Shown here: one piece after another, positions 9,905 to 33,998 of the stretch | Layout of the letters: each line of letters opens with the position of its first letter | Position numbering within the stretch: the stretch's first letter is position 1 | Origin: an uncultured SAR86 cluster bacterium | GTDB taxonomy: Bacteria; Pseudomonadota; Gammaproteobacteria; Magnimaribacterales; Magnimaribacteraceae | Length of the DNA: 39,131 nt | Reading direction: 5' to 3' | Assembly: GCA_902618945.1 (NCBI GenBank) | Contig: CACNCK010000013.1 | Coordinates: forward strand, 1-39,131 | Notes under the pieces: generated by a model | Told to the model about the DNA's origin: nothing | Seen by the model: the letters and a program-made list of their open reading frames with translations, nothing else | Database searches by the model: none | Program-made: the position numbers and the translations under genes

Positions 9905-10924
9905 ATGGCTCATAAAAAGGTGACTGACATAAAAGAAGTAGACAAATCCAAGCAACTAGACAGTGCTTTAGGTCAAATTGAGAGACAGTTTGGCTCAGGA
10001 ACCGTCATGCGTATGGGAGAAAAGAGAAATGAAAAAATTCCTGCTATTCCGACCGGATCATTAGGACTCGATATTGCATTGGGCATTGGTGGACTTCCTA
10101 GAGGTAGAATCGTTGAGATTTATGGTCCTGAGTCTTCTGGCAAAACAACACTTACTCTCGAAGTAATAGCACAATGTCAAAAATTAGGTGGTACTGCCGC
10201 ATTTATTGATGCTGAACACGCATTAGATCCCATCTATGCTGAAAAACTTGGAGTAAATGTTGATGAATTATTAGTTTCACAACCTGATACAGGTGAGCAA
10301 GCTTTGGAAGTTGCAGATATTATGGTTTCATCTGGTGGCGTCGATATATTAGTTATTGATTCTGTAGCCGCTTTAGTCCCTAAAGCTGAAATAGAAGGAG
10401 AGATGGGAGACCATCACGTTGGTCTGCAAGCAAGATTAATGTCACAAGCCCTTAGGAAGATCACTGGAAATGTTCAAAAATCTGATACCTTAGTCATTTT
10501 TATCAATCAAATAAGACACAAAATAGGAGTTATGTTTGGAAGTCCGGAAACAACTGCAGGAGGAAATGCCCTCAAGTTTTATTCTTCTGTCAGAATGGAC
10601 ATAAGAAGAATCGGTACAGTTAAAGATGGTGATGAGGCTGTAGGAAATGAAACTCGAGTGAAGGTCGTCAAAAATAAAGTTTCACCACCTTTTAAACAGG
10701 CAGAATTTCAGATACTTTACAATAAAGGGATAAACAGATTGGGAGAGTTAATTGATAAAGGAGCTGATCTCGATATCATAGAAAAGGCGGGAGCTTGGTA
10801 TAGTTACGAAGGCGAGAAGATAGGACAAGGCAAGGCTAACTCCATTGAGTTTCTTGAACAAAATCCTAAATTACTGAAGACGATAGAAAAGCGAGTAATG
10901 GATTCCATCAATAAAGAGGATTAA
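9905..10924 (+). CDS. recA: Recombinase RecA
   Basis: RecA forms filaments on single-stranded DNA, drives homologous strand exchange and triggers LexA self-cleavage. At 339 residues it is a normal bacterial length. Visible features are the Walker A motif GPESSGKTT at residues 74-82, [30 protein letters not shown] (Walker B region), QALRKITGN and loop 2 [22 protein letters not shown]. It is transcribed from a LexA-boxed promoter and ends in a hairpin terminator, so it is probably monocistronic. recX, which usually follows recA, is absent; a thiolase gene comes next. Confidence 0.99.
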
Positions 10925-13574: not shown

Positions 13575-13853
13575 ATGCCGACATATATTTTTAAGAATAT
13601 AAAAACCGATGAGGTTTTTGAGAAACAAATGCGGATTTCGGAGCTAGACGAATATAAGAAAGAAAATCCTGATCTGATTCAGATGCCCACGGCTCCATCA
13701 TTTAGACTTAAAGGAACAGGATGGTATGAAACAGACTTTAAAACAGGTAATAAAAAAAATATTGCTAAAAGCGATAGTGAAACTCAGTCATCTCCCAAGC
13801 CTAAAGAAAAAAAAGATTCTTCGACAAAAAAAGTATCACCGGAAAAGAAATGA
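13575..13853 (+). CDS. FmdB-family-like protein lacking the zinc-ribbon cysteines
   Basis: This 92-residue protein begins MPTYIFKNIKTDEVFEKQM and ends in a Lys/Ser/Pro-rich tail. Gammaproteobacterial FmdB-type zinc-ribbon proteins are commonly encoded just before aspS and contain the stretch FRLKGxGWYETDFKxGNKKN. The same stretch is present here (FRLKGTGWYETDFKTGNKKN, about residues 46-65). However, the protein has no cysteine at all, so it cannot form the usual C4 zinc ribbon. Its N-terminal half (ISELDEYKKENPDLIQMPTAP) resembles cysteine-free FmdB-like proteins of marine T4-type phages as I remember them. The function is unknown. The stop overlaps the aspS start as ATGA. Confidence 0.75.
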   Translation: MPTYIFKNIKTDEVFEKQMRISELDEYKKENPDLIQMPTAPSFRLKGTGWYETDFKTGNKKNIAKSDSETQSSPKPKEKKDSSTKKVSPEKK

Positions 13854-15625
13854 AAAGAACGCATAAATGTAACCAAGTTACTGCAGCCTTAATAGGTCAA
13901 GAGATTACTATCTCTGGTTGGATTCATAGGAGGCGGGATCATGGCGGTGTAATCTTTTTTGATGTAAGAGATGAGGACGGATTGGTTCAAGTTGTCTATA
14001 ACCCAGAATCTAAAGATATATTTTCCTTGGCAGAGACTTGTAGAAATGAATTTGTAATATTCTCAAAAGGGGTTGTAAGTGAGAGACCAGTCGGCTCAGC
14101 TAATGATAATTTAGTAACGGGAGAGGTTGAGATCATTGCTTCTGATCTTCAAATCCTAAATCCATCTTTACCAATTCCTTTTCAATTAGATGAATATTCA
14201 TCTGTTGGAGAGGAGACTCGTTTGAAATTTAGGTTCTTGGATTTGAGACGGACTGAAATGCAAGATAATCTCAGACTAAGATCAAAAGTATCAACCTCGC
14301 TTAGAAGCTACCTTGCTAATGAAGATTTTATTGAAATCGAAACACCACTTTTAACAAAAGCAACACCGGAAGGTGCAAGAGACTATTTAGTTCCAAGTAG
14401 GACATTTCCAGGTCAATTCTTCGCTTTACCTCAGTCTCCACAATTATTTAAGCAAACACTTATGGCTTCCGGTTTTGAAAAGTATTTTCAATTTGCTAAA
14501 TGTTTTAGAGATGAAGATTTAAGGGCTGATCGACAGCCAGAATTTACACAATTAGACATAGAGATGTCCTTCGCAGATTCCAAAGAAGTTATGAGCTTAA
14601 TTACCAAAATGATTAAACAAGTATTCAAAGAATCTCTGTCAGTTGATTTGGGAGATTTTGTAGAGATTACATACCTCGAAGCTATCGAGAAATATGGTGT
14701 TGATAAACCAGACCTAAGAAATCCTCTAGAGTTACTTGAAGTTAAAGAATTGTTTAAAGAATGTGATTTTAAGGTTTTTAGTGAACCAGCAAATGACAAA
14801 GATTCAAGAATTGCAGCCATTAAAGTGCCTAATGGGAAATTATTAACTAGGAAACAAATAGATGAGTATACCGAGTTTGTTGGAAACTATGGTGCAAAAG
14901 GACTAGCTTACATAAGGGTAGAAGATCCCTCGAAAGGGAAAGAGGGACTTCAATCGCCAATTATAAAATTTATAGAGGATTCCATCATAGAATCTTTAAT
15001 AGAAACTTTAGAAGTTCAAGAAGGAGATATCATTTTCTTTGGAGCAGGAAAAAGAAATATTGTGAATGATTCCTTGGCTGCATTACGGGATCTTGTCGCA
15101 AAAGACCTAGATTTACTTACTTGTGAATGGGCACCATGTTGGGTAGTAGATTTTCCAATGTTTGAAAAAAACAAAAGTGGAGAGTTAACACCATTACATC
15201 ATCCATTTACTGCTCCGAATTGCACTGCAGATGAACTAAAAGACGACCCGCTTGGTGCATTAACAGAGGCATACGATATTGTTTTAAATGGTACTGAGCT
15301 TGGAGGAGGTTCTGTAAGAATACATGATAGATTGATGCAAGAGACTGTTTTGAAGCTTCTCAATATTAATGAGAAAGAGGCCGAGGAGAAATTTGGTTTC
15401 TTAATTTCAGCATTACAGCATGGCTGTCCGCCGCATGCAGGATTGGCAATAGGTTTTGATAGAATGATTATGTTAATGACTGGTTCAGATTCTATAAGGG
15501 ATGTAATCGCCTTTCCTAAAACTCAAACAGCATCTTGTTTACTTACTGAGGCACCAGGACAAGCTGCTCAGGAACAACTTGAAGAATTACACATTAGGTT
15601 CCATGGACTAGAAAAGGAGGATTAA
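13850..15625 (+). CDS. aspS: Aspartyl-tRNA synthetase
   Basis: AspRS charges tRNA-Asp. At 591 residues it is almost the E. coli length. The N-terminal OB-fold anticodon domain includes ISGWIHRRRDHGGVIFFDVRD. The catalytic core has motif 1 IETPLLTKATPEGARDYLVPSR, the sequence LPQSPQLFKQTLM, motif 2 FRDEDLRADRQPEFTQLDIEMSF, a bacterial insert domain, and motif 3 GLAIGFDRMIMLMTG with DVIAFPKTQ. Whether it also charges tRNA-Asn cannot be decided here. It is coupled to the FmdB-like gene (ATGA), and yebC begins at the very next base after the stop. Confidence 0.98.
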   Translation: MKRTHKCNQVTAALIGQEITISGWIHRRRDHGGVIFFDVRDEDGLVQVVYNPESKDIFSLAETCRNEFVIFSKGVVSERPVGSANDNLVTGEVEIIASDLQILNPSLPIPFQLDEYSSVGEETRLKFRFLDLRRTEMQDNLRLRSKVSTSLRSYLANEDFIEIETPLLTKATPEGARDYLVPSRTFPGQFFALPQSPQLFKQTLMASGFEKYFQFAKCFRDEDLRADRQPEFTQLDIEMSFADSKEVMSLITKMIKQVFKESLSVDLGDFVEITYLEAIEKYGVDKPDLRNPLELLEVKELFKECDFKVFSEPANDKDSRIAAIKVPNGKLLTRKQIDEYTEFVGNYGAKGLAYIRVEDPSKGKEGLQSPIIKFIEDSIIESLIETLEVQEGDIIFFGAGKRNIVNDSLAALRDLVAKDLDLLTCEWAPCWVVDFPMFEKNKSGELTPLHHPFTAPNCTADELKDDPLGALTEAYDIVLNGTELGGGSVRIHDRLMQETVLKLLNINEKEAEEKFGFLISALQHGCPPHAGLAIGFDRMIMLMTGSDSIRDVIAFPKTQTASCLLTEAPGQAAQEQLEELHIRFHGLEKED

Positions 15626-16372
15626 GTGGCCGGTCATTCAAAGTGGGCAAACATTAAGCATCGAAAAGGAAGACAGGATGCTAAGAGAGGTAAGATTTTT
15701 TCTGTATTAATCAGAGAACTTACAGTTGCGGCAAAGCTTGGTGGCGGCGTAACAGATGATAATCCAAGATTGCGCACTGCTGTTGATAAAGCTTTAGCTG
15801 CAAATATGACTAAAGATACTATTGAAAGAGCTATTCAAAGGGGAGCTGGTGGCATAGAAGGTGAAAATTTAGAGGAGGTAAGTTTTGAAGGATATGGACC
15901 TGGTGGAATAGCGATAATTGTAGAATCTATGACAGATAATAATAATCGCACAGTAGCTGAAGTAAGACATGCATTCACAAAATTAGGTGGTAATCTAGGA
16001 ACTAACGGGTCCGTATCTTACCTGTTTGAAAAAAAAGGTTTAATAAATACTGCTCCAGATCAAGATGCAGATCAGGTAATGGAGATTTCAATTGAAGCTG
16101 GAGCTGAAGATATTGAAGTAAATGATGACGATAGTATAACAGTGAGCTCTTCACCAGAAGATTTTGAAAATATAAAAAAAGCTCTGTTGGAGAAGGAAAT
16201 TGATCTTATTGACTCTGATGTAGCCTTAGTTCCAGAGACAACTGTTAAAGCCGATTTAGATACTTCTATAAAGGTTTTTAAGTTGCTTGAAATGCTTGAA
16301 GATCTTGACGATACTCAAAATGTGACCTCCAATATAGAGTTTGCTGAAGGCATGCTGGATCAATTGGATTAA
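15626..16372 (+). CDS. yebC: YebC/PmpR family protein
   Basis: The 248-residue YebC family is a translation factor that relieves ribosome stalling at proline-rich stretches, in older literature also a transcriptional regulator. The start is GTG: MAGHSKWANIKHRKGRQDAKRGK. Further signatures are NPRLRTAVDKALAANMTKDTIERAI, RGAGG, YEGYGPGG-type FEGYGPGGIAI, NRTVAEVRHAFTKLGGNLGTNGSV and FEKKG. In E. coli and Pseudomonas ruvC, ruvA and ruvB follow; here a small PDDEXK nuclease gene follows after one base. Confidence 0.96.
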   Translation: MAGHSKWANIKHRKGRQDAKRGKIFSVLIRELTVAAKLGGGVTDDNPRLRTAVDKALAANMTKDTIERAIQRGAGGIEGENLEEVSFEGYGPGGIAIIVESMTDNNNRTVAEVRHAFTKLGGNLGTNGSVSYLFEKKGLINTAPDQDADQVMEISIEAGAEDIEVNDDDSITVSSSPEDFENIKKALLEKEIDLIDSDVALVPETTVKADLDTSIKVFKLLEMLEDLDDTQNVTSNIEFAEGMLDQLD

Positions 16373-16373
16373 A

Positions 16374-16793
16374 ATGACAAATTCTAGAAATAAAGGCGCT
16401 TCTTTCGAGAGAGAAGTGGCTAATTTGTTGACTAATGATTTGAATTTAACAAAAAATATCAGACGAATACTCGAGCAAACCAGGGAGAAGCATTTACCTG
16501 ATTTAATGTTGGGAAGATGGTATCTCGAATGTAAGAGATACGGATCTGGAGCTGAACCATTAGATGCTTGGTGGAAGCAAGTCTTAGAAGCTACAAAAAA
16601 TAAAGGAATCCCTGCTTTAGTATACAAATTCGATAGAAGGCCAATTAAAGTTAGAGTGCCCCTAGGAGCCATAAATCCTTCACTACATTTAGATTCACCT
16701 TTTACAGCAGATCTATTGTGGGATGACTTTATTTTCCTCCTAAAAGAACTTTATGCCAACGATATAGCTGATCATGAACACATAGACTTATGA
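16374..16793 (+). CDS. PDDEXK nuclease, Holliday junction resolvase-like (Hjc/phage type)
   Basis: This protein has about 139 residues from the ATG at 16374 (MTNSRNKGASFEREV); upstream starts would overlap yebC. The order of acidic residues fits the PD-(D/E)XK fold: E12 in FEREVANLL, D43 in LPDLMLG and E52-x-K54 in LECKRY, followed by AWWKQVLEAT, which resembles the helix after the ExK motif in archaeal Hjc and phage resolvases. NKG-x-x-FEREVA is the usual opening of those enzymes. Such enzymes cut four-way DNA junctions. It sits exactly where ruvC-ruvA-ruvB lie in other gammaproteobacteria, between yebC and ybgC, and its stop overlaps the ybgC start (ATGA). The resolvase role is inferred from motifs and position; another structure-specific or restriction-like nuclease is possible. 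Confidence 0.78.
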   Translation: MTNSRNKGASFEREVANLLTNDLNLTKNIRRILEQTREKHLPDLMLGRWYLECKRYGSGAEPLDAWWKQVLEATKNKGIPALVYKFDRRPIKVRVPLGAINPSLHLDSPFTADLLWDDFIFLLKELYANDIADHEHIDL

Positions 16794-17188
16794 AGGATTA
16801 TCATTTTAGAATTTATTACGAAGATACAGATGCACAAGGCGTTGTATATTATGCTAACTATCTGAAATTTTTTGAAAGAGCTAGAACCGAGTATTTAAGA
16901 GGAGTTGGCTACGAACAAATGAAGCTTATGCAGGAAGGTATTATATTTATTGTCAGGAGTCTTGAGCTAAAACTTATAAAGCCAGCAAAGTTAGATGACT
17001 CTGTTAAAGTGAGAACTGAATTGTCAAAGGTCGGAAAAGTAAGTTTTGATTTTATACAAACCGCATATGTTAATGATTCCTTGATTACTGAAGCGAATAT
17101 TAAATGCGGTAGCTTAGATCCGATAACTTTTACTCCTTCAGCACTTCCTGAATATTTATATAAAGGAATGCAAAAACTACTTTTATAA
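16790..17188 (+). CDS. ybgC: Tol-Pal-associated acyl-CoA thioesterase YbgC
   Basis: This hot-dog fold thioesterase of 132 residues is the standard first gene of the tol-pal cluster. The 4HBT signature is RIYYEDTDAQGVVYYANYLKFFERARTEYLR, with the catalytic Asp in DTDAQG. It hydrolyses acyl-CoA or acyl-ACP and is linked to phospholipid metabolism. It overlaps the upstream nuclease gene by four bases and lies four bases before tolQ. Confidence 0.96.
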   Translation: MKDYHFRIYYEDTDAQGVVYYANYLKFFERARTEYLRGVGYEQMKLMQEGIIFIVRSLELKLIKPAKLDDSVKVRTELSKVGKVSFDFIQTAYVNDSLITEANIKCGSLDPITFTPSALPEYLYKGMQKLLL

Positions 17189-17192
17189 TTAT

Positions 17193-17867
17193 ATGGATCT
17201 CTCAATTTTAGAATTATTTTTGAATGCAAGTATTGTAGTTAAATCTGTCATAGTGATTCTAATTCTTGCATCTCTTGTCTCTTGGATGATAATTTTTGAG
17301 CGTTGGATTTACATAAAAAAAGTAAATCAGGAATTCTTCAATTTTGAAACTAGATTCTGGTCAGATTCAGGACTAGAAGCCTTACTTTTAACAAGTCAAG
17401 AAGGGGAGCATGAACCAATTGGGGCTGAATATATTTTTCAAGTTGGATATCTTGACTACAAACGTCTCATAGCAGAAAAAATTGATTCAGATACTATCAT
17501 ATCGAGTGTGCAGAGAAATATGCAGGCTGCGTTAACAAAAGAGCAATCATTGCTTGAAAAACATTTACCTTTTTTAGCCACTATTGCTTCTGTGAGTCCT
17601 TACATAGGTTTATTTGGAACGGTTTGGGGCATAATGAACTCGTTCAGAGGACTAGCCGGTTCATCTCAAGCAACATTATCTGCAGTAGCTCCTGGTATCT
17701 CTGAAGCTCTAATTGCAACGGCGATAGGACTTTTTGCAGCGATACCTGCTTTAATCGCTTACAACAAGTATATATCTGATTCTGATAGACTCATTTCAAG
17801 TTTTGAAGGATTTAAAGAGGAATTTTCTTCGGTTCTTCATCGTGATATGCAGTCTGACAAAAAATGA
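17193..17867 (+). CDS. tolQ: Tol-Pal system protein TolQ
   Basis: TolQ is the inner-membrane stator protein (ExbB/MotA family) that with TolR turns proton flow into movement of TolA during cell constriction. At 224 residues it is normal. One membrane segment lies at about 13-34 before FERWIYI. Two more lie in the conserved C-terminal half: HLPFLATIASVSPYIGLFGTVWGIMNSF, then GISEALIATAIGLFAAIPALIAYN. It overlaps tolR by four bases (ATGA). Confidence 0.97.
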   Translation: MDLSILELFLNASIVVKSVIVILILASLVSWMIIFERWIYIKKVNQEFFNFETRFWSDSGLEALLLTSQEGEHEPIGAEYIFQVGYLDYKRLIAEKIDSDTIISSVQRNMQAALTKEQSLLEKHLPFLATIASVSPYIGLFGTVWGIMNSFRGLAGSSQATLSAVAPGISEALIATAIGLFAAIPALIAYNKYISDSDRLISSFEGFKEEFSSVLHRDMQSDKK

Positions 17868-18280
17868 AACGAAGAAATCTTATATCTGATATTAATGTTG
17901 TTCCTTATATCGATGTAATGCTGGTTTTGTTGGTTATTTTTATGATATCTGCACCTTTGATGGTTCAAGGAATTCAAATAAATCTTCCCGAAGCGCCCTC
18001 AGAAGCTTTACCAGTAAAGAATAATGAACCTCTCATTATTTCCATTAAAAAGGATGGAGCTATCTTTTTAGAAACTGAATCCACTAAAGACAGATCTCTA
18101 AGTCTTGAGGAGATGAACAATTTTGTGTCGAAGATTTTTGAGGCTAGTCCTGGTTTGCAAGTCGTCATAAGAGGTGATGGTGAAGTGAAGTATGAGAGAG
18201 TCATGACTGTTATGGCTGAGTTACAAATAGCCGGAGCTAGTGACATAGGATTAATCTCGCAACCAATAACATCTAAGTGA
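17864..18280 (+). CDS. tolR: Tol-Pal system protein TolR
   Basis: TolR (ExbD family, 138 residues) has a short cytoplasmic N-terminus, one membrane helix at about residues 14-33 and a periplasmic domain. The conserved proton-pathway aspartate is D17 in VVPYIDVMLVLLVIFM. QINLPEA and the C-terminal VVIRGDGEVKYERVMTVMAELQIAGASDIGLIS are typical. It overlaps tolQ by four bases and tolA by four bases. Confidence 0.96.
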   Translation: MKRRNLISDINVVPYIDVMLVLLVIFMISAPLMVQGIQINLPEAPSEALPVKNNEPLIISIKKDGAIFLETESTKDRSLSLEEMNNFVSKIFEASPGLQVVIRGDGEVKYERVMTVMAELQIAGASDIGLISQPITSK

Positions 18281-18882
18281 ACTATTTTGCTCCACTCTTT
18301 TTATCAGTATTTATCCATTTTGGTATAGTTTTATCATTTTCAAATTTTTTCACCATAGACTTTGATAAATTTAATATTGAAGCGGAAAAACCTATTACTG
18401 CATATATTATATTTGTTGAAAATAAAAAGACCCAAAAAGAACTCATCAAAATTCAACAAGATCTTCCAAATAAGAATATTTTGGAAGCTGAGGTCGAAAA
18501 GATAGACATCACCAGCAATACTTCAATCATAGAAGCAATTGAAGCTCTGGAAAATATAAAAACTTCCGATAATCGAGAAAGAGCGGAAGTATCTCAATCC
18601 GATGTTGAGAAATACTCTTATGTAATAAAAAAACAAGTCATGGCAAACTGGAAAAGACCTAAAAATCTAAATTCGAATTTAAAGACTGAAATCCAAATTA
18701 ATCTCGTGCCTACGGGTGAGATTATATCTTCAAAAATAATTAAAGGGAGTGGAAACAAAATTTTTGATGATTCAGCTTTGTCTGCGGTTTTAAAGGTTAG
18801 ATCTTTTGAAGGTTTAAACATGCAAATGAATCTATTTGATCAGCACTTTAGAGAATTTATTTTAATATTTAGTCCTAATTAA
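18277..18882 (+). CDS. tolA: TolA, short form
   Basis: TolA spans the periplasm from the TolQR motor to Pal and TolB at the outer membrane. This one has 201 residues against about 350-420 in E. coli and Pseudomonas. It has an N-terminal membrane helix (about 5-25). A charged linker of about 70 residues replaces the long helical domain II. A TonB-like C-terminal domain follows: YVIKKQVMANWKRP, INLVPTGEIISSKIIKGSGNKIFDDSALSAVLK. Start GTG overlaps the tolR stop (GTGA). Identity rests on architecture and on position between tolR and tolB. Confidence 0.9.
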   Translation: MNYFAPLFLSVFIHFGIVLSFSNFFTIDFDKFNIEAEKPITAYIIFVENKKTQKELIKIQQDLPNKNILEAEVEKIDITSNTSIIEAIEALENIKTSDNRERAEVSQSDVEKYSYVIKKQVMANWKRPKNLNSNLKTEIQINLVPTGEIISSKIIKGSGNKIFDDSALSAVLKVRSFEGLNMQMNLFDQHFREFILIFSPN

Positions 18883-18895
18883 TTTGAATGACGCA

Positions 18896-20188
18896 ATGTT
18901 TTACAAGAATATTATTTTAATAACTGCATCATTATTCTTTCTTTCAACTCTTTCTGGACAACTTAGAATAGAGATCAAAGGTGGACTAGAGGACCCAATT
19001 AATGTAGCGGTAGTTCCTATGCAATGGAATTTAGATACCCCTCAAGATTTATTTATTCATGAGGTAATAAAGTCTGATCTTGAATCATTCGGAGAGTTCG
19101 TTGTATTGCCTCCTAAGAATATGTTGAGCTTACCTAGTTCTAAAGAAGACGTTTTTTTTAAAGACTGGAGAATATTAGGAACAGATTTCTTGGTGATAGG
19201 AAATGTAGGTCTTTCGGAGGTGGAGAATGAAATAAAAGTTTCATTTATCATTTTTGATGTTGTGAAAGAAAGATTAATACACAGAGGTATAGTATTAGGT
19301 ACCAAAAAAACTTTGAGAAGAATGAGTCATAAAATCAGTGATAACATTTATTCAAAAATACATGGCATCCCAGGTATTTTTTCAACTCAAATAGCCTATA
19401 TAGATAAGCCATCTGTCAGTGATCCTAACTATAACTTAATGATTTCAGATCTAGATGGATTTCAGAGCTTATCTCTTTTTTCTTCTCCTCAACCTTTGAT
19501 GTCTCCAAGTTGGTCTCCTGACAGGAAGAAAATTGCTTATGTATCTTTTGAAGAGGGAACTTCGCGTATCTTTATACAGCAGCTTTCTAATGCCGAAAGG
19601 TTTGGTCTTAAACTAGAAAGAGGTATTAATAGCTCACCAAATTGGTCACCAAATGGTGATAAATTGTCTGCTGTCCTATCCAGGACAGGTAATCCAGATA
19701 TTTTTATATATGATCTTAAACTTTCTAATTGGATCCAAGTTACGAATCACTTTGGAATTGATACTGAACCAGATTGGTCACCTGATTCTAGAAAAATTTT
19801 ATTTACCTCAAATAGATCAGGTTCACCGCAAATATATGAAGCAAATGTAAAAACGAAGAGAATAAAAAGAATTACTTTCGATGGAACTTATAATGCGAGG
19901 GGCAGGTATCTACCCAACGGAAAGGACATTGTCTTTGTTCACAGAAGAAATGGTGTCTTCCATATAGCCAAGCAAAACCTGAGATCTGGAAATATAAATA
20001 TATTAACCGATACTTCATTAGATGAATCTCCAACAGTTTCACCTAATGGAAATGTAGTTATTTATGCAACTAAGGACGGGGATAAGGATATATTGGCTGG
20101 TATTACTTTAGATGGTAAGACAAAATTTGTTATGCCTTCATTGAAGGGAGAGGCAAGAGAACCGTCCTGGTCTCCTCTGATAGATTAG
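18896..20188 (+). CDS. tolB: Tol-Pal system translocation protein TolB
   Basis: TolB is a periplasmic protein with an N-terminal mixed domain and a C-terminal six-bladed beta-propeller that binds Pal. About 430 residues is normal. The propeller repeats are visible as SPSWSPDRKKIAYVSFE, SSPNWSPNGDKLSAVLSR, TEPDWSPDSRKILFTSNRSG and SPTVSPNGNVVIYAT, ending REPSWSP. I start it at the ATG giving MFYKNIILITASLFFLSTLSGQ, a clean signal peptide. An in-frame TTG at 18884 would add four residues. Confidence 0.95.
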   Translation: MFYKNIILITASLFFLSTLSGQLRIEIKGGLEDPINVAVVPMQWNLDTPQDLFIHEVIKSDLESFGEFVVLPPKNMLSLPSSKEDVFFKDWRILGTDFLVIGNVGLSEVENEIKVSFIIFDVVKERLIHRGIVLGTKKTLRRMSHKISDNIYSKIHGIPGIFSTQIAYIDKPSVSDPNYNLMISDLDGFQSLSLFSSPQPLMSPSWSPDRKKIAYVSFEEGTSRIFIQQLSNAERFGLKLERGINSSPNWSPNGDKLSAVLSRTGNPDIFIYDLKLSNWIQVTNHFGIDTEPDWSPDSRKILFTSNRSGSPQIYEANVKTKRIKRITFDGTYNARGRYLPNGKDIVFVHRRNGVFHIAKQNLRSGNINILTDTSLDESPTVSPNGNVVIYATKDGDKDILAGITLDGKTKFVMPSLKGEAREPSWSPLID

Positions 20189-20202
20189 AATCAAAATAGA
20201 AG

Positions 20203-20208
20203 TATAAT
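20203..20208 (+). promoter_or_regulatory. Possible -10 element and RBS for pal
   Basis: TATAAT lies in the 37-base gap between tolB and pal, 17 bases before the ATG. It is followed by a strong ribosome binding site ACAGGAGG. Extra pal expression from its own promoter would suit this abundant lipoprotein, but the -35 region is unconvincing and the start site would lie very near the RBS. Confidence 0.3.
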
Positions 20209-20225
20209 AGAGACAGGAGGCTTAA

Positions 20226-20690
20226 ATGAATATCATACAAAAATCTTTAATAACTTTTCTCGTAATTACTGTAGCTTCATGCAGTTCTGTCTCAATGGAT
20301 AGGACAAGCGATTCAACAGCCATATCCGCATCTGCATCAGGTGCTTACTCTGATAGCGGTCTTACATCCAACAATATTCTTTACTTTGCATATGATAGAT
20401 CAGATATAAATTCTGAGGGCAGGGCGAAAATTAGATCCCTTGCTAATGTTATAAAAGACAATAATTTAAGTGTAAGGGTTGAGGGACATTGTGATGAGAG
20501 AGGAACACGTGAATATAATTTAGCCCTTGGAGAACAACGAGCCAAAACAGTCGCTGAATTATTGATTATCAATGGAGTTTCTTCAGAAAAAATTTCTACT
20601 GTAAGTTATGGTGAGGAAAAACCAGCCGTATCTGGCTCTAATGAGAACTCTTGGTCAAAGAATAGAAGGGCACTCGTTAAAACATTCTGA
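20226..20690 (+). CDS. pal: Peptidoglycan-associated lipoprotein Pal
   Basis: Pal is an outer-membrane lipoprotein (154 residues) that binds peptidoglycan and TolB. The signal peptide ends in a lipobox with the lipidated Cys at residue 19 (TVASCSS). A Ser/Thr-rich linker follows. The OmpA-like domain has LYFAYDRSDINSEGRAKI and the peptidoglycan-binding signature VEGHCDERGTREYNLALGEQRA, ending SWSKNRRALVKTF. A strong AGGAGG lies just upstream. Confidence 0.97.
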   Translation: MNIIQKSLITFLVITVASCSSVSMDRTSDSTAISASASGAYSDSGLTSNNILYFAYDRSDINSEGRAKIRSLANVIKDNNLSVRVEGHCDERGTREYNLALGEQRAKTVAELLIINGVSSEKISTVSYGEEKPAVSGSNENSWSKNRRALVKTF

Positions 20691-30159: not shown

Positions 30160-31977
30160 TTAAGACGCAGCTAATGCCGGTTTACCCGATATATGAGCAT
30201 TTATTTTATTGATAATATGTTCAGCGGTTATAGGTTGACCATCAAAACAAAGTATCGATACAAGCTTATCAGGAATTATTCCACCTTCAGCCATAATTAA
30301 TGTTCTCATTTGACCATCTCTATTTTGTTCAACTATAAAAAGAAGGTCATGATCCTCAATAAATTCCCAAACTTCAAGATTAAATGGGAAAGCCCTAATT
30401 CTCATTGCATCAATACTTAAATTCTGTTCATCCAGGACATCTAAAGCCTCTTGCATAGAGCAATCAGTACTTCCGAAATAAATAATTCCCATCGAACTAG
30501 TATTCTTTTCTTGATTAAATACTGGACTAGGAACTAAAGAGGATGCTGTTTGAAATTTCTTGACCAGTCTAGTTAGCATTTCAGCATTTTTAACCCCATC
30601 TTCGGTATAACCCGCATACTCATCATGTGAGGTACCTCTTGTAAAATATGCCCCTTTTTCAGGATGTGTTCCAGGATAAGTTCGATAGGGTATACCGTCT
30701 CCATCAACATCTAAATATCTTCCAAATTTTTCTATACTATCCAGATCGTCCTTAGAAAGAACTTTTCCACGATCATATTGATTATTATCATCCCACTCAA
30801 ATTCTTTAGTAGACCAATCATTCATCCCTAAGTCTAAGTCTAGCAGCACTATGACAGGTGTCTGAAGGCGATCTGCGAGATCAAAAGCTTCCACAGCAAA
30901 ATCAAAACATTCCTTAGGATCTGATGGTATTAATAAAATATGTTTTGTATCTCCGTGAGAGGCATATGCTGAGCATAAAATATCCGACTGTTGTGTTCTT
31001 GTGGGCATACCTGTTGAAGGCCCGCCTCTTTGTACATTAAATAAAACAGTAGGAACTTCAGCAAAATAGGCTAACCCAATAAACTCGCTCATCAAGGAAA
31101 CTCCTGGTCCGCTAGTGGCAGTAAAAGCTCTTGCCCCATTCCAATTTGCTCCAATGGTCATACCCATAGCTGCTAATTCATCTTCAGCTTGAATAAATGC
31201 AAATTTATTTTTTTCAGTGCCTATTTCTTTCCTCATTTTTTCACTATATTTGCTATAAGACTCTGCAAGTGAAGTAGAAGGTGTTATTGGATACCAAGCA
31301 CAAACAGTAGCACCTCCGTAGACACAACCCAAACCGGCAGCATCATTCCCACTTGTTAGGATTAATCCATCAGTTTTATTTGATTTGTTAACTTTGATTT
31401 CACAATAGTCTTTGAAGTTTTCTTCAGCATAGTTATATCCAATATTTAGAGCCTTTACATTTGGTTCAATCAGTTTCTCTTTACCTTTAAATTGCTCTTC
31501 TATTAGTGATATGTATATTTCTTTATCCATTTCAAGAATGGAAGCTAAAAAGCCTACATAACCTAGATTTTTAAAGAGAAGTCTTTGTTTCGGATTAGTA
31601 AATTCTTGGACGCATAATTTTGTGAGTGGAATTTCTAAGATATTTATATCTTCTCTACCAAAATCTCTTTTCCAAGAAGAATCGTAGATTAGGTAACCGC
31701 CTTCTTTGAGATCTTCCACATCTTTTTGATATGATTGAGGATTCATGGCAACAAACAAATCAATACCTTCTCTCCTGCCGAGGTATCCCTTTTCATTGAC
31801 TCTGACTTCAAACCATGTCGGTAATCCTTGTATATTAGAAGGAAAGATATTTTTTGGACTAACTGGTATTCCAGATCTAAAGACTCCTTTAGCAAACATT
31901 TGATTAGCGCTTGCAGAGCCTGAACCATTAACATTTGCAAATTTGATTACAAAGTCATTGACAGATTTTATTTTCAT
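30160..31977 (-). CDS. korA: 2-oxoacid:ferredoxin oxidoreductase alpha subunit with fused gamma domain (KorA-like)
   Basis: This 605-residue protein fuses an N-terminal gamma domain (about 1-190; FANVNGSGSASANQMFAKGVFRSG, FVAMNPQS) to the alpha, pyrimidine-binding domain (GNDAAGLGCVYGGATVCAWYPITPSTSLAE, EDELAAMGMTIGANWNGARAFTATSGPG, LFNVQRGGPSTGMPTRTQQSD). A transketolase C-terminal-like part (SSMGIIYFGSTDCSMQEAL, FIVEQNRDGQMR) follows. I chose the ATG at 31977, which shares one base with the upstream stop (TAATG) and gives MKIKSVNDFVIKFANVNGSG. A longer frame begins upstream inside the neighbouring gene and is unlikely. The gene is followed by korB after nine bases. Confidence 0.93.
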   Translation of the reverse strand: MKIKSVNDFVIKFANVNGSGSASANQMFAKGVFRSGIPVSPKNIFPSNIQGLPTWFEVRVNEKGYLGRREGIDLFVAMNPQSYQKDVEDLKEGGYLIYDSSWKRDFGREDINILEIPLTKLCVQEFTNPKQRLLFKNLGYVGFLASILEMDKEIYISLIEEQFKGKEKLIEPNVKALNIGYNYAEENFKDYCEIKVNKSNKTDGLILTSGNDAAGLGCVYGGATVCAWYPITPSTSLAESYSKYSEKMRKEIGTEKNKFAFIQAEDELAAMGMTIGANWNGARAFTATSGPGVSLMSEFIGLAYFAEVPTVLFNVQRGGPSTGMPTRTQQSDILCSAYASHGDTKHILLIPSDPKECFDFAVEAFDLADRLQTPVIVLLDLDLGMNDWSTKEFEWDDNNQYDRGKVLSKDDLDSIEKFGRYLDVDGDGIPYRTYPGTHPEKGAYFTRGTSHDEYAGYTEDGVKNAEMLTRLVKKFQTASSLVPSPVFNQEKNTSSMGIIYFGSTDCSMQEALDVLDEQNLSIDAMRIRAFPFNLEVWEFIEDHDLLFIVEQNRDGQMRTLIMAEGGIIPDKLVSILCFDGQPITAEHIINKINAHISGKPALAAS

Positions 31978-33998
31978 TAAGAATATGCCTTCGCTTCTTG
32001 ATAGAGGAAATTTTGCATGTCCCAAGCTCCTGTAGGACATCTCTCAGCACATAAACCACAATGCAGACAGACATCTTCGTCTTTCACCATGACACGTGAA
32101 GTCTGCTCTAATTCCTCAGAAACCAAAATTTGCTGATTTAAATTAATTGCAGGGATTCTTAGTTTATTTCTTAGATTTTCTTCAGAGTCATTGTGAACAA
32201 AACTTATGCAATCTGTAGGACAGATATCTACACATGCATCACATTCAATACAAAGATCTTCTGAGAAGACAGTTTGAATATCACAGTTTAAGCAACGCTC
32301 TGCTTCCTCAAGAGCAGTAATTTCATCAAAACCCAACTCAACCTCCATCTTAAGATCTTTTAGAGCATTTTTTTGGTCTGCATGGGGCACTAAAAACCTT
32401 TTGGCTTGCGAAATATCATTATTGTAGGACCATTCGTGGACTCCCATTTTCTGACTTATAAGAGTAGTTGTTGGCTCTGGCCTATCGTAAAGATCAGAAC
32501 TTTTACAGAACTTATCGATTGAGATTGCGGCTTGATGACCATGTGCGGCTGCCCAAATTATATTTTCTGGTCCCCATGCGGCATCTCCACCAAAGAAAAC
32601 CTTCTCATTTGATGACTGAAAAGTAACCTTATCGACTATTGGCATATCCCACTCACCAAATTCTATTCCAATATCTCTTTCAATCCACTCAAAAGCATTA
32701 TCCTGTCCAATTGCGACTAGTACATCATCACACTCAAGAATCACAGGATCATCACCTGTAGGAACAAGACTTCTTTTACCATTTTCGTCAAATACAGCTT
32801 CAACTTTTTCAAACTCCATTCCAACTAGCTTTTCATCTTTAATTAAGAAGCGTTTGGGCACATGATTATCTAGGATAGGTATTCCTTCACCTAGAGCATC
32901 TTCTATTTCCCATTCTGAAGCTTTCATTTGGTCAAAAGGACTTCTCACTGCAACCTTCACTTCTTCAGCACCAAGTCTTATGGCCGTTCTGCAACAATCC
33001 ATAGCTGTGTTTCCACCGCCCAACACTATTACTTTTTTCCCTACTGATTTGGTATGTTCAAAGGCTATGCTTGTAAGCCAATCTATCCCTATATGAATAT
33101 TTTTATCAGCGGCTTCTCTGCCTTCGATATTTATATCTCTACCTTTAGGTGCTCCTGTTCCCACGAAGACTGCATCAAAATCTTTTTCTAAAAAATCTTT
33201 CATACTCTTTATTTCAGAATTAAATTCTGTTTTGATACCCATGTTCAAGACTTGATCAACTTCCTCATTTAAAACCTCTTCCGGAAGTCTAAAAGAGGGT
33301 ATATTCGTTCTCATTAGACCACCAGCTTGTGGATCTTTTTCGAAGAGGGTGCATTGATAACCCATCATTACCAAGTCTCTTGCCACTGTTAATGAAGCAG
33401 GACCACCTCCTATGAGACCAACTTTCTTTCCATTGCTAATTTCAGGAGTAGGTATTAAATTCGCAATATCATCTTTATAGTCATAAGTGACTCTCTTAAG
33501 CCTGCAAATTGCTACAGCTTTTTCATGAGTTCTAGTTCTCCGACAGGCAGGTTCACAGGGTCTATCACAGGTTCTTCCGAGTATTCCAGGAAATACATTA
33601 GACTCCCAATTTAGCATATATGCTTCATTGTAGTTGCCTTGAGAAATTTGTCTTATGTACTCAGGTACAGGTGTATGAGCAGGGCAGGCGTGCTGACATT
33701 CTACAACTTTATGATAGTACTGAGGATTTGCGGTATCTGTAGGAGGTACATATTGGGTAACCGTTTGCTCAGGTACAGAGAAAAGGTCGAGACTCTCTTG
33801 GCTTTTCGCTTGATCTATTTTAGCCTTTAGTTGTTCAACTACTTGCCATCTTAATTCTTGCGCTTTATCTAAATCGTGAGTCTGAAGTGACCTTCTCAAA
33901 TCATATCCTAATTCCTCTCTCAGAGTTTTAGGTACAGCTACTTTAACCCACCAAGTGTTGTACCTTTTAAACAAGTACCTTGTGTCTGCGTTACTCAT
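31977..33998 (-). CDS. GltD-like FAD/NAD(P) oxidoreductase with ferredoxin domains and integrase-like N-terminus
   Basis: This 673-residue flavo-iron-sulfur protein heads the korAB operon. Residues about 6-65 (TRYLFKRYNTWWVKVAVPKT, GYDLRRSLQTHDL) look like the N-terminal DUF6538-type domain of tyrosine integrases. Next comes a GltD/dihydropyrimidine-dehydrogenase-type Fe-S domain (C101, C105, C144, C148, C152), an FAD motif GLIGGGPASL at 184-193, a second nucleotide motif GGGNTAMDC at 317-325, and GQDN...FFGGDAAWGP closing the FAD domain. Two [4Fe-4S] motifs end the protein (C583-C586-C589-C593 and C644-C647-C650-C654). The likely role is to move electrons between KorAB and NAD(P). No recombinase catalytic domain is present. 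Confidence 0.88.
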   Translation of the reverse strand: MSNADTRYLFKRYNTWWVKVAVPKTLREELGYDLRRSLQTHDLDKAQELRWQVVEQLKAKIDQAKSQESLDLFSVPEQTVTQYVPPTDTANPQYYHKVVECQHACPAHTPVPEYIRQISQGNYNEAYMLNWESNVFPGILGRTCDRPCEPACRRTRTHEKAVAICRLKRVTYDYKDDIANLIPTPEISNGKKVGLIGGGPASLTVARDLVMMGYQCTLFEKDPQAGGLMRTNIPSFRLPEEVLNEEVDQVLNMGIKTEFNSEIKSMKDFLEKDFDAVFVGTGAPKGRDINIEGREAADKNIHIGIDWLTSIAFEHTKSVGKKVIVLGGGNTAMDCCRTAIRLGAEEVKVAVRSPFDQMKASEWEIEDALGEGIPILDNHVPKRFLIKDEKLVGMEFEKVEAVFDENGKRSLVPTGDDPVILECDDVLVAIGQDNAFEWIERDIGIEFGEWDMPIVDKVTFQSSNEKVFFGGDAAWGPENIIWAAAHGHQAAISIDKFCKSSDLYDRPEPTTTLISQKMGVHEWSYNNDISQAKRFLVPHADQKNALKDLKMEVELGFDEITALEEAERCLNCDIQTVFSEDLCIECDACVDICPTDCISFVHNDSEENLRNKLRIPAINLNQQILVSEELEQTSRVMVKDEDVCLHCGLCAERCPTGAWDMQNFLYQEAKAYS

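Follow-up and report, generated by a model that had tools for sequence, protein, structure and literature searches.

Among the closest described relatives in kind of the nuclease reported here is Hjc_15-6 of the Thermus phage Tth15-6 (PDB entries 7bgs and 7bnx), a small PD-(D/E)XK enzyme with the motif E10-SD39/40-EVK53-55 that cleaves X-shaped DNA (PMC8805305). The archaeal resolvases Hjc and Hje (PF01870; PDB entries 1ob8, 1gef, and 2wcw) share this small-nuclease design and the same catalytic order. In bacteria, the known case of another nuclease standing in for RuvC is RecU of Firmicutes, in which RuvAB is kept and RecU is mostly encoded at a distance from RuvAB (Rocha et al. 2005; PMC3403352). 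Rocha et al. (2005) surveyed 117 bacterial species and reported that, of the genomes with RecA, only two were without RuvAB, each of them with RecG. YebC, YbgC, TolB, and TolQ are listed as genomic companions of RuvABC (PMC3403352). Here we describe X, a 139-codon PD-(D/E)XK gene that lies between yebC and ybgC-tolQRAB in DNA of the SAR86 cluster. X occupies the same chromosomal slot as the RuvABC resolvasome and presumably acts on the same substrate, but it has a different fold, is a single protein, and comes with no motor. Unlike the RecU case, RuvB has been lost too and the new gene sits inside the ruv site; unlike the phage gene for Hjc_15-6, X is a fixed chromosomal gene, although its motif, E12-PD42/43-ECK52-54, resembles that of the phage enzyme. 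We consider it likely that SAR86 uses X as its Holliday-junction resolvase, that the gene was captured from a phage and replaced ruvC-ruvA-ruvB in place, and that its product acts without RuvAB.

The window, by which we mean the whole 39,131-nucleotide stretch analysed (contig C13), derives from a genome of 1.37 Mb in 30 contigs that is 81.55% complete. The genes discussed here all lie on the forward strand, in the order aspS (13850–15625), yebC (15626–16372), X (16374–16793), ybgC (16790–17188), and then tolQ, tolR, tolA, and tolB with pal-like genes (17193–20690), followed by further genes. yebC is the 5′ marker of the native ruvC site, and the tol block forms the rest of the native neighbourhood. 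aspS was named by eye, as was the tol block, for which gene order was used in addition; synteny was probed with tolQ, tolR, and tolB. The window also encodes RecA (9905–10924; TIGR02012, 558.2 bits, cut-off 325.3), the recombinase that would supply X with junctions to resolve. Direct reading confirmed the preliminary description of the locus: the yebC stop codon TAA at 16372 is followed by a 1-base gap (16373), the ATG of X at 16374, and its TGA at 16793, and the ybgC start at 16790 overlaps the end of X in an ATGA. The opening NKGASFEREVANLL and residues E12, P42-D43, and E52-C53-K54 likewise read as described earlier. The codons for E12 (16407–16409) and D43 (16500–16502) specify proposed catalytic or metal residues that correspond in motif order to E10 and D40 of Hjc_15-6, and the E52-C53-K54 codons (16527–16535), within a strand of the predicted model (residues 49–55), specify a proposed E-x-K catalytic motif corresponding to E53-V-K55. 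An in-frame TTG lies at 16341, 33 bases 5′ of the ATG and inside yebC, and the start codon shared by relatives is the ATG at 16374 rather than this TTG. At 35.8% GC, 139 stop-free codons in one given frame have a chance probability of ∼4e-5, uncorrected for the number of frames and positions; conservation is the stronger evidence that X is a real gene.

Of the 61 genomes sampled from the order, which span four families and 17 genera, 57 carry X, including all 26 good ones (at least 90% complete, at most 5% contaminated, and several in a single contig). The remaining four SAR86 genomes gave no yebC match, and the locus is therefore missing from those assemblies. In a set of 124 loci with X, which is partly redundant in that the genome_contigs loci and the genome set overlap in many assemblies and which holds 83 distinct X proteins (one prophage copy included), X lies directly after yebC in 123, and ybgC was found 3′ of X in 114; the sole locus with another order is the prophage copy. 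The KGxxFER and PDL...ECK motifs are kept in all 123 chromosomal copies. All 28 aligned SAR86 rows have E12, D43, E52, and K54, and in a 30-row alignment that includes phage relatives and proteins of a second type, Y (see below), E12, E52, and K54 are invariant and D43 nearly so. X is under strong constraint: among 15 loci of the genus, its median dN/dS is below those of four neighbouring genes, at 0.036 (21 pairs) against 0.044 for yebC (20), 0.072 for tolQ (15), 0.079 for part of aspS (18), and 0.135 for ybgC (30), all from pairs limited to dS 0.15–1.5.

The loss of RuvABC, proposed earlier from the window alone, was supported across the sampled order. Profile searches of the 61 genomes found no RuvC and no RuvB over cut-off (best score 29.3 bits, cut-off 299), and RuvA over cut-off in only one genome, G031, on a 3.25-kb contig; no intact ruvABC was recovered. 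RusA was found in none of 36 chosen genomes (29 SAR86 and seven of family f42, described below) and in three of 14 control genomes; in the same 14 controls, RuvC was found in eight and RuvB over cut-off in 10. Sub-cut-off RuvB matches are present in all 61 genomes and were set aside as other AAA+ proteins by score. A family search named two of these weak matches, at L001 of the window's genome and L072 of G050, as DnaX; the Pfam RuvB_N match of 27.1 bits in the window's genome (nominally over the model cut-off of 27) is DnaX and not RuvB. RuvA gave a match of any strength in 12 genomes. The weak match on L072 is RecR, and the remaining weak ones were assessed from their scores and the lengths of their ORFs, three of them lying in ORFs of 605–627 residues with a stop. 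The ruvA of G031 (L071:2547–3146) is convergent with an efflux-type gene on a contig without ruvB; its best match among 24 other ruv loci is 48% identical, and its GC content of 0.376 is SAR86-like. This lone gene may be a contaminant or a relic.

The preliminary description took ruvC-ruvA-ruvB to be native to this interval in E. coli and Pseudomonas. We read 9 kb in each of 20 RuvC-positive genomes of the class, hand-picked among the best RuvC matches listed: yebC precedes ruvC in 18, ruvA comes next in all 20, ruvB is present in 16, and tolQ in 13. Linkage of yebC to ruvC holds as the native order in these genomes; proximity to tol does not hold for E. coli, in which the tol genes lie elsewhere than the ruv interval. 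Of the 16 RuvC-negative class genomes outside SAR86 among those listed, 11 gave no yebC match, several of them at >95% completeness, and the absence of RuvC there may therefore reflect an assembly gap or a real loss alike. G132 has yebC followed by dissimilar ORFs and masked sequence; the contigs of G189 and G269 break off within yebC. Two others, G098 and G344, belong to f42.

The protein encoded by X matches Pfam PF24608, PDDEXK_15 (37.7 bits, cut-off 27, E 2.4e-9), described in Pfam as "Phage putative PDDEXK endonuclease," and phrog_244 (E 3.8e-13), titled RusA-like Holliday junction resolvase; "RusA-like" in that title is a label, and X matches PF24608, not PF05866. Both families are described as phage families, and the descriptions mention no fixed host version. 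PF24608 is common to X, Y, and all 30 aligned proteins, and phrog_244 to X and the five relatives tested. No NCBIfam model was found for X, and Pfam searches at E values up to 10 gave no match to PF01870 (archaeal Hjc), PF02075 (RuvC), PF05866 (RusA), RecU, or Mrr, although six of the 30 aligned relatives match PF01870 at E ≤ 0.01. An AlphaFold2 model built from the 28-row alignment (mean pLDDT 87.6, pTM 0.84) was compared with the PDB by Foldseek. Ranks 1–11 were chains of four archaeal junction resolvases, at E values of 2.0e-3 to 3.3e-2, none reaching 0.001, and with TM scores of 0.43–0.51 on query length; a restriction enzyme followed at rank 12 (probability 0.54). Among predicted viral folds there were 26 matches at E ≤ 0.001 (best 2.2e-12); most are nameless, and three carry the label Holliday junction resolvase. 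The predicted fold of X is thus nearest to the archaeal Hjc/Hje resolvases and not to restriction enzymes, at a TM score of ∼0.5. By sequence, neither an X-only profile nor one of X with its phage clade, both without Y-type rows, retrieved an Hjc chain from the PDB; once Y-type rows were included, the first nine of 14 PDB sequences were Hjc or related proteins (best E 6.6e-4), one of them titled only ST1444. Because profiles of X and its phage clade fall short by sequence, the link between X and Hjc depends on the predicted fold or on the bridging clade. Overall, these results, with no Pfam match of X to a restriction-endonuclease family, agree with the earlier suggestion of a phage- or archaeal-type resolvase put in place of ruv. 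Both X and its phage clade keep a WWxQ helix (W66, W67, and Q69 of X; 16569–16580), whose W67 and Q69 are the same in all 25 rows aligned.

Relatives of X occur in phages. A scan of viral contigs gave at least 458 relatives among 600 candidates, of which 80 loci were kept, and eight phage records carry relatives as well. In some cases these lie near genes for a primase-helicase, a RecE-like exonuclease, or a Ref-like nuclease (neighbours picked by hand), and DNA methyltransferase genes, one of them among the hand-picked neighbours, adjoin some phage copies. X profile matches occur in eight of the 369 class genomes: four SAR86 genomes, G098, and three in prophage-like contexts (G276, G069, and G161; loci L223, L224, and L225), which, judged by eye from their neighbours, resemble prophages or other mobile DNA. 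G069 has a second X-profile match, on L227. In a tree of 113 proteins (140 columns, unrooted, with a long-branch warning, and with viral rows from separate X and Y searches), 28 SAR86 X proteins group with one phage copy (100/97), and this clade lies inside viral diversity. The phage contig with that copy (L139:7977–8417) also encodes tail fibre, holin, and endolysin proteins, and the copy adjoins a second endonuclease gene (phrog_452). The copy is 59% identical to X of the window and joins SAR86 family f2 at 94/93, which is not starred. Since it nests within the SAR86 clade, this phage appears to bear a SAR86-type resolvase, hinting that L139 comes from a SAR86 phage. The G053 prophage copy (L069:9017–9436), an X-like nuclease gene beside genes for a RecE-like exonuclease and a primase/helicase, is additional to the chromosomal X of that genome.

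A second case was found in f42, a gammaproteobacterial family with genomes of 0.7–1.1 Mb. Profile search found RuvC in none of 12 f42 genomes and in all eight genomes of f166 and f184, two families of the same order. Nine of the 12 f42 genomes, and none of the eight others, encode Y, a 104-residue PDDEXK_15 protein that differs from X and lacks the WWxQ helix and the C-terminal part of X. Y lies directly 3′ of yebC in all nine loci, with ybgC-tolQ next in eight; the four f166/f184 loci that we read have yebC-ruvC-ruvA-ruvB-tolQ, with ybgC in three. Neither RuvC nor Y was found in the f42 genomes G430, G432 (93% complete), and G433. Y scores 18.5 bits against Hjc PF01870 (cut-off 21.1), and a six-row Y profile matches the Hjc_15-6 structure 7bgs at E 8e-6, whereas X alone gives no such sequence match. 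A tree of yebC and tolQ (35 of 44 loci) places f42 with f166/f184, at a support of 93/93 that falls short of the starred level, and SAR86 apart from f42, with a RuvC-positive genome at 94/97. From these sequence comparisons, a swap at the ruv site seems to have occurred twice, once in SAR86 and once in f42, the loss in f42 being scored by RuvC. The state of G432 makes the double swap slightly less probable.

Three other readings of these data have to be weighed, and one of them, that ruv genes are present in SAR86 but were overlooked in incomplete genomes or as diverged copies, can draw on the limited completeness of the window's genome and on the one ruvA over cut-off in G031. Against it, none of the 26 good genomes, all of them at least 90% complete, has RuvC, and none has RuvB over cut-off; the ruv locus itself is sequenced and occupied by X, with no ruv match in any of the 124 loci; and the identical search recovers RuvC from 343 of the 369 genomes of the class and from 298 of the 313 good ones. 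These observations largely refute the overlooking of ruv, to which we attach hardly any probability. A single ancient replacement common to SAR86 and f42, in which X and Y are one gene that has diverged, would account for the shared locus and Pfam family and for the similarity of the two profiles (hhalign probability 95.2, E 2.6e-8), and the tree that separates the two proteins is unrooted, with few columns, long branches, and separately gathered viral rows. That tree nonetheless places X and Y beside different viral rows, with a split of 100/99, while the order-mates of f42 uniformly have RuvC and the yebC and tolQ tree groups f42 with them and SAR86 with a RuvC-positive genome. We regard a single replacement as very improbable.

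More serious, though still unlikely in our judgement, is that X is a phage-derived branched-DNA or restriction-type PD-(D/E)XK nuclease with another job that came to lie in a deleted ruvCAB site, junctions being resolved by YqgF/RuvX or avoided through RecG and other pathways. Nucleases of many kinds share the PD-(D/E)XK fold. The methyltransferase genes beside some phage copies would fit a restriction-like role too, and one of the 30 aligned relatives matches Mrr_cat, weakly (E 0.0022). It has also been suggested that YqgF might act in genomes without RuvC and RecU (Rocha et al. 2005). Several points argue against another job and for a resolvase: a second lineage placed a different member of the same family at the same site, the closest solved folds belong to junction resolvases, the median dN/dS of X is below that of every other gene compared, and no DNA methylase gene adjoins X in the window, as judged by eye. 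Overall, the central claim that RuvABC was replaced by X is well supported, and the finding is wider than first claimed, in that it covers the whole sampled order and has a parallel in f42.

By analogy with the described enzymes, we infer that X cleaves four-way junctions, and its dimeric state, metal, branch-migration partners, and the direction and timing of its capture are inferred likewise. X would nick opposite strands of the junction, like archaeal Hjc and Hjc_15-6, probably as a dimer with two PD-(D/E)XK sites (E12, D43, E52, and K54) and a divalent metal. Its capture from a phage would predate the divergence of the four sampled SAR86 families, and it would have taken over the whole ruvC-ruvA-ruvB slot between yebC and ybgC; standing in place of the entire ruv block, it would thus act without RuvAB. 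RecG, which the preliminary description named as a possible source of branch migration, may well supply it in those SAR86 genomes that have RecG, among them the window's genome (683 bits). RecG is over cut-off in 35 of the 61 genomes and scores at least 640 bits in 51, and in G022 the copy is split across two contigs. A full copy is missing from nine genomes: G028 (86% complete; part of RecG lies where a contig ends), G033 (66% complete), and seven f2 genomes at 93–96% completeness (G035, G038, G041, G044, G047, G050, and G053), in which the best match is an ORF of ∼1000–1100 residues, Mfd by length. Two f2 genomes of another genus, G056 and G059, have RecG. Because seven genomes of such completeness are without it, RecG cannot be the general branch-migration motor of SAR86. 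In this f2 subgroup, the candidates would perhaps be RecA itself or RadA, which has been reported to stimulate branch migration (PMC4786428).

Taken together, the results make it reasonably probable that two streamlined gammaproteobacterial lineages each swapped the whole of RuvABC for one phage resolvase at the native site and that a SAR86 subgroup is RecG-less in addition. If so, RecA recombination in that subgroup would lack both classical motors of branch migration and use a single nuclease of viral origin. The SAR86 order is abundant in the ocean, and if X is a resolvase, then a successful free-living lineage would be able to do without the RuvAB motor, and an enzyme from a phage could assume a core repair step within the native operon. 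The parallel in f42 turns a single anecdote into a testable pattern, and PDDEXK_15, a little-known phage family, becomes a concrete subject for enzymology. Our literature search returned no account of SAR86 in connection with ruvC, with Holliday junctions, or with recombination and RecG, and none of the absence of RuvC or RuvB in SUP05. The enzyme is of a known kind; its wholesale substitution for RuvABC in place is undescribed within the literature searched.

Several loci depart from the common layout in minor ways. In the f4 loci L061–L068, no ybgC match was found 3′ of X (tblastn, E 1e-4), and in L067 and L068 tolQ and tolR are likewise absent from the stretch. In the SAR86 locus L102, ∼3.2 kb separate X from the next ybgC match. 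Contig L103, titled as a Thaumarchaeota archaeon metagenome-assembled genome, carries the aspS-yebC-X-ybgC-tol block with an X that is 79% identical to that of the window, and its archaeal title is probably a binning error. Elsewhere in the window, a 673-residue ORF on the reverse strand (31977–33998) is NAD(P)-binding/GltD-like from about residue 76 onward, and its N terminus resembles by eye that of a phage integrase, which may reflect a fusion or a wrong start.
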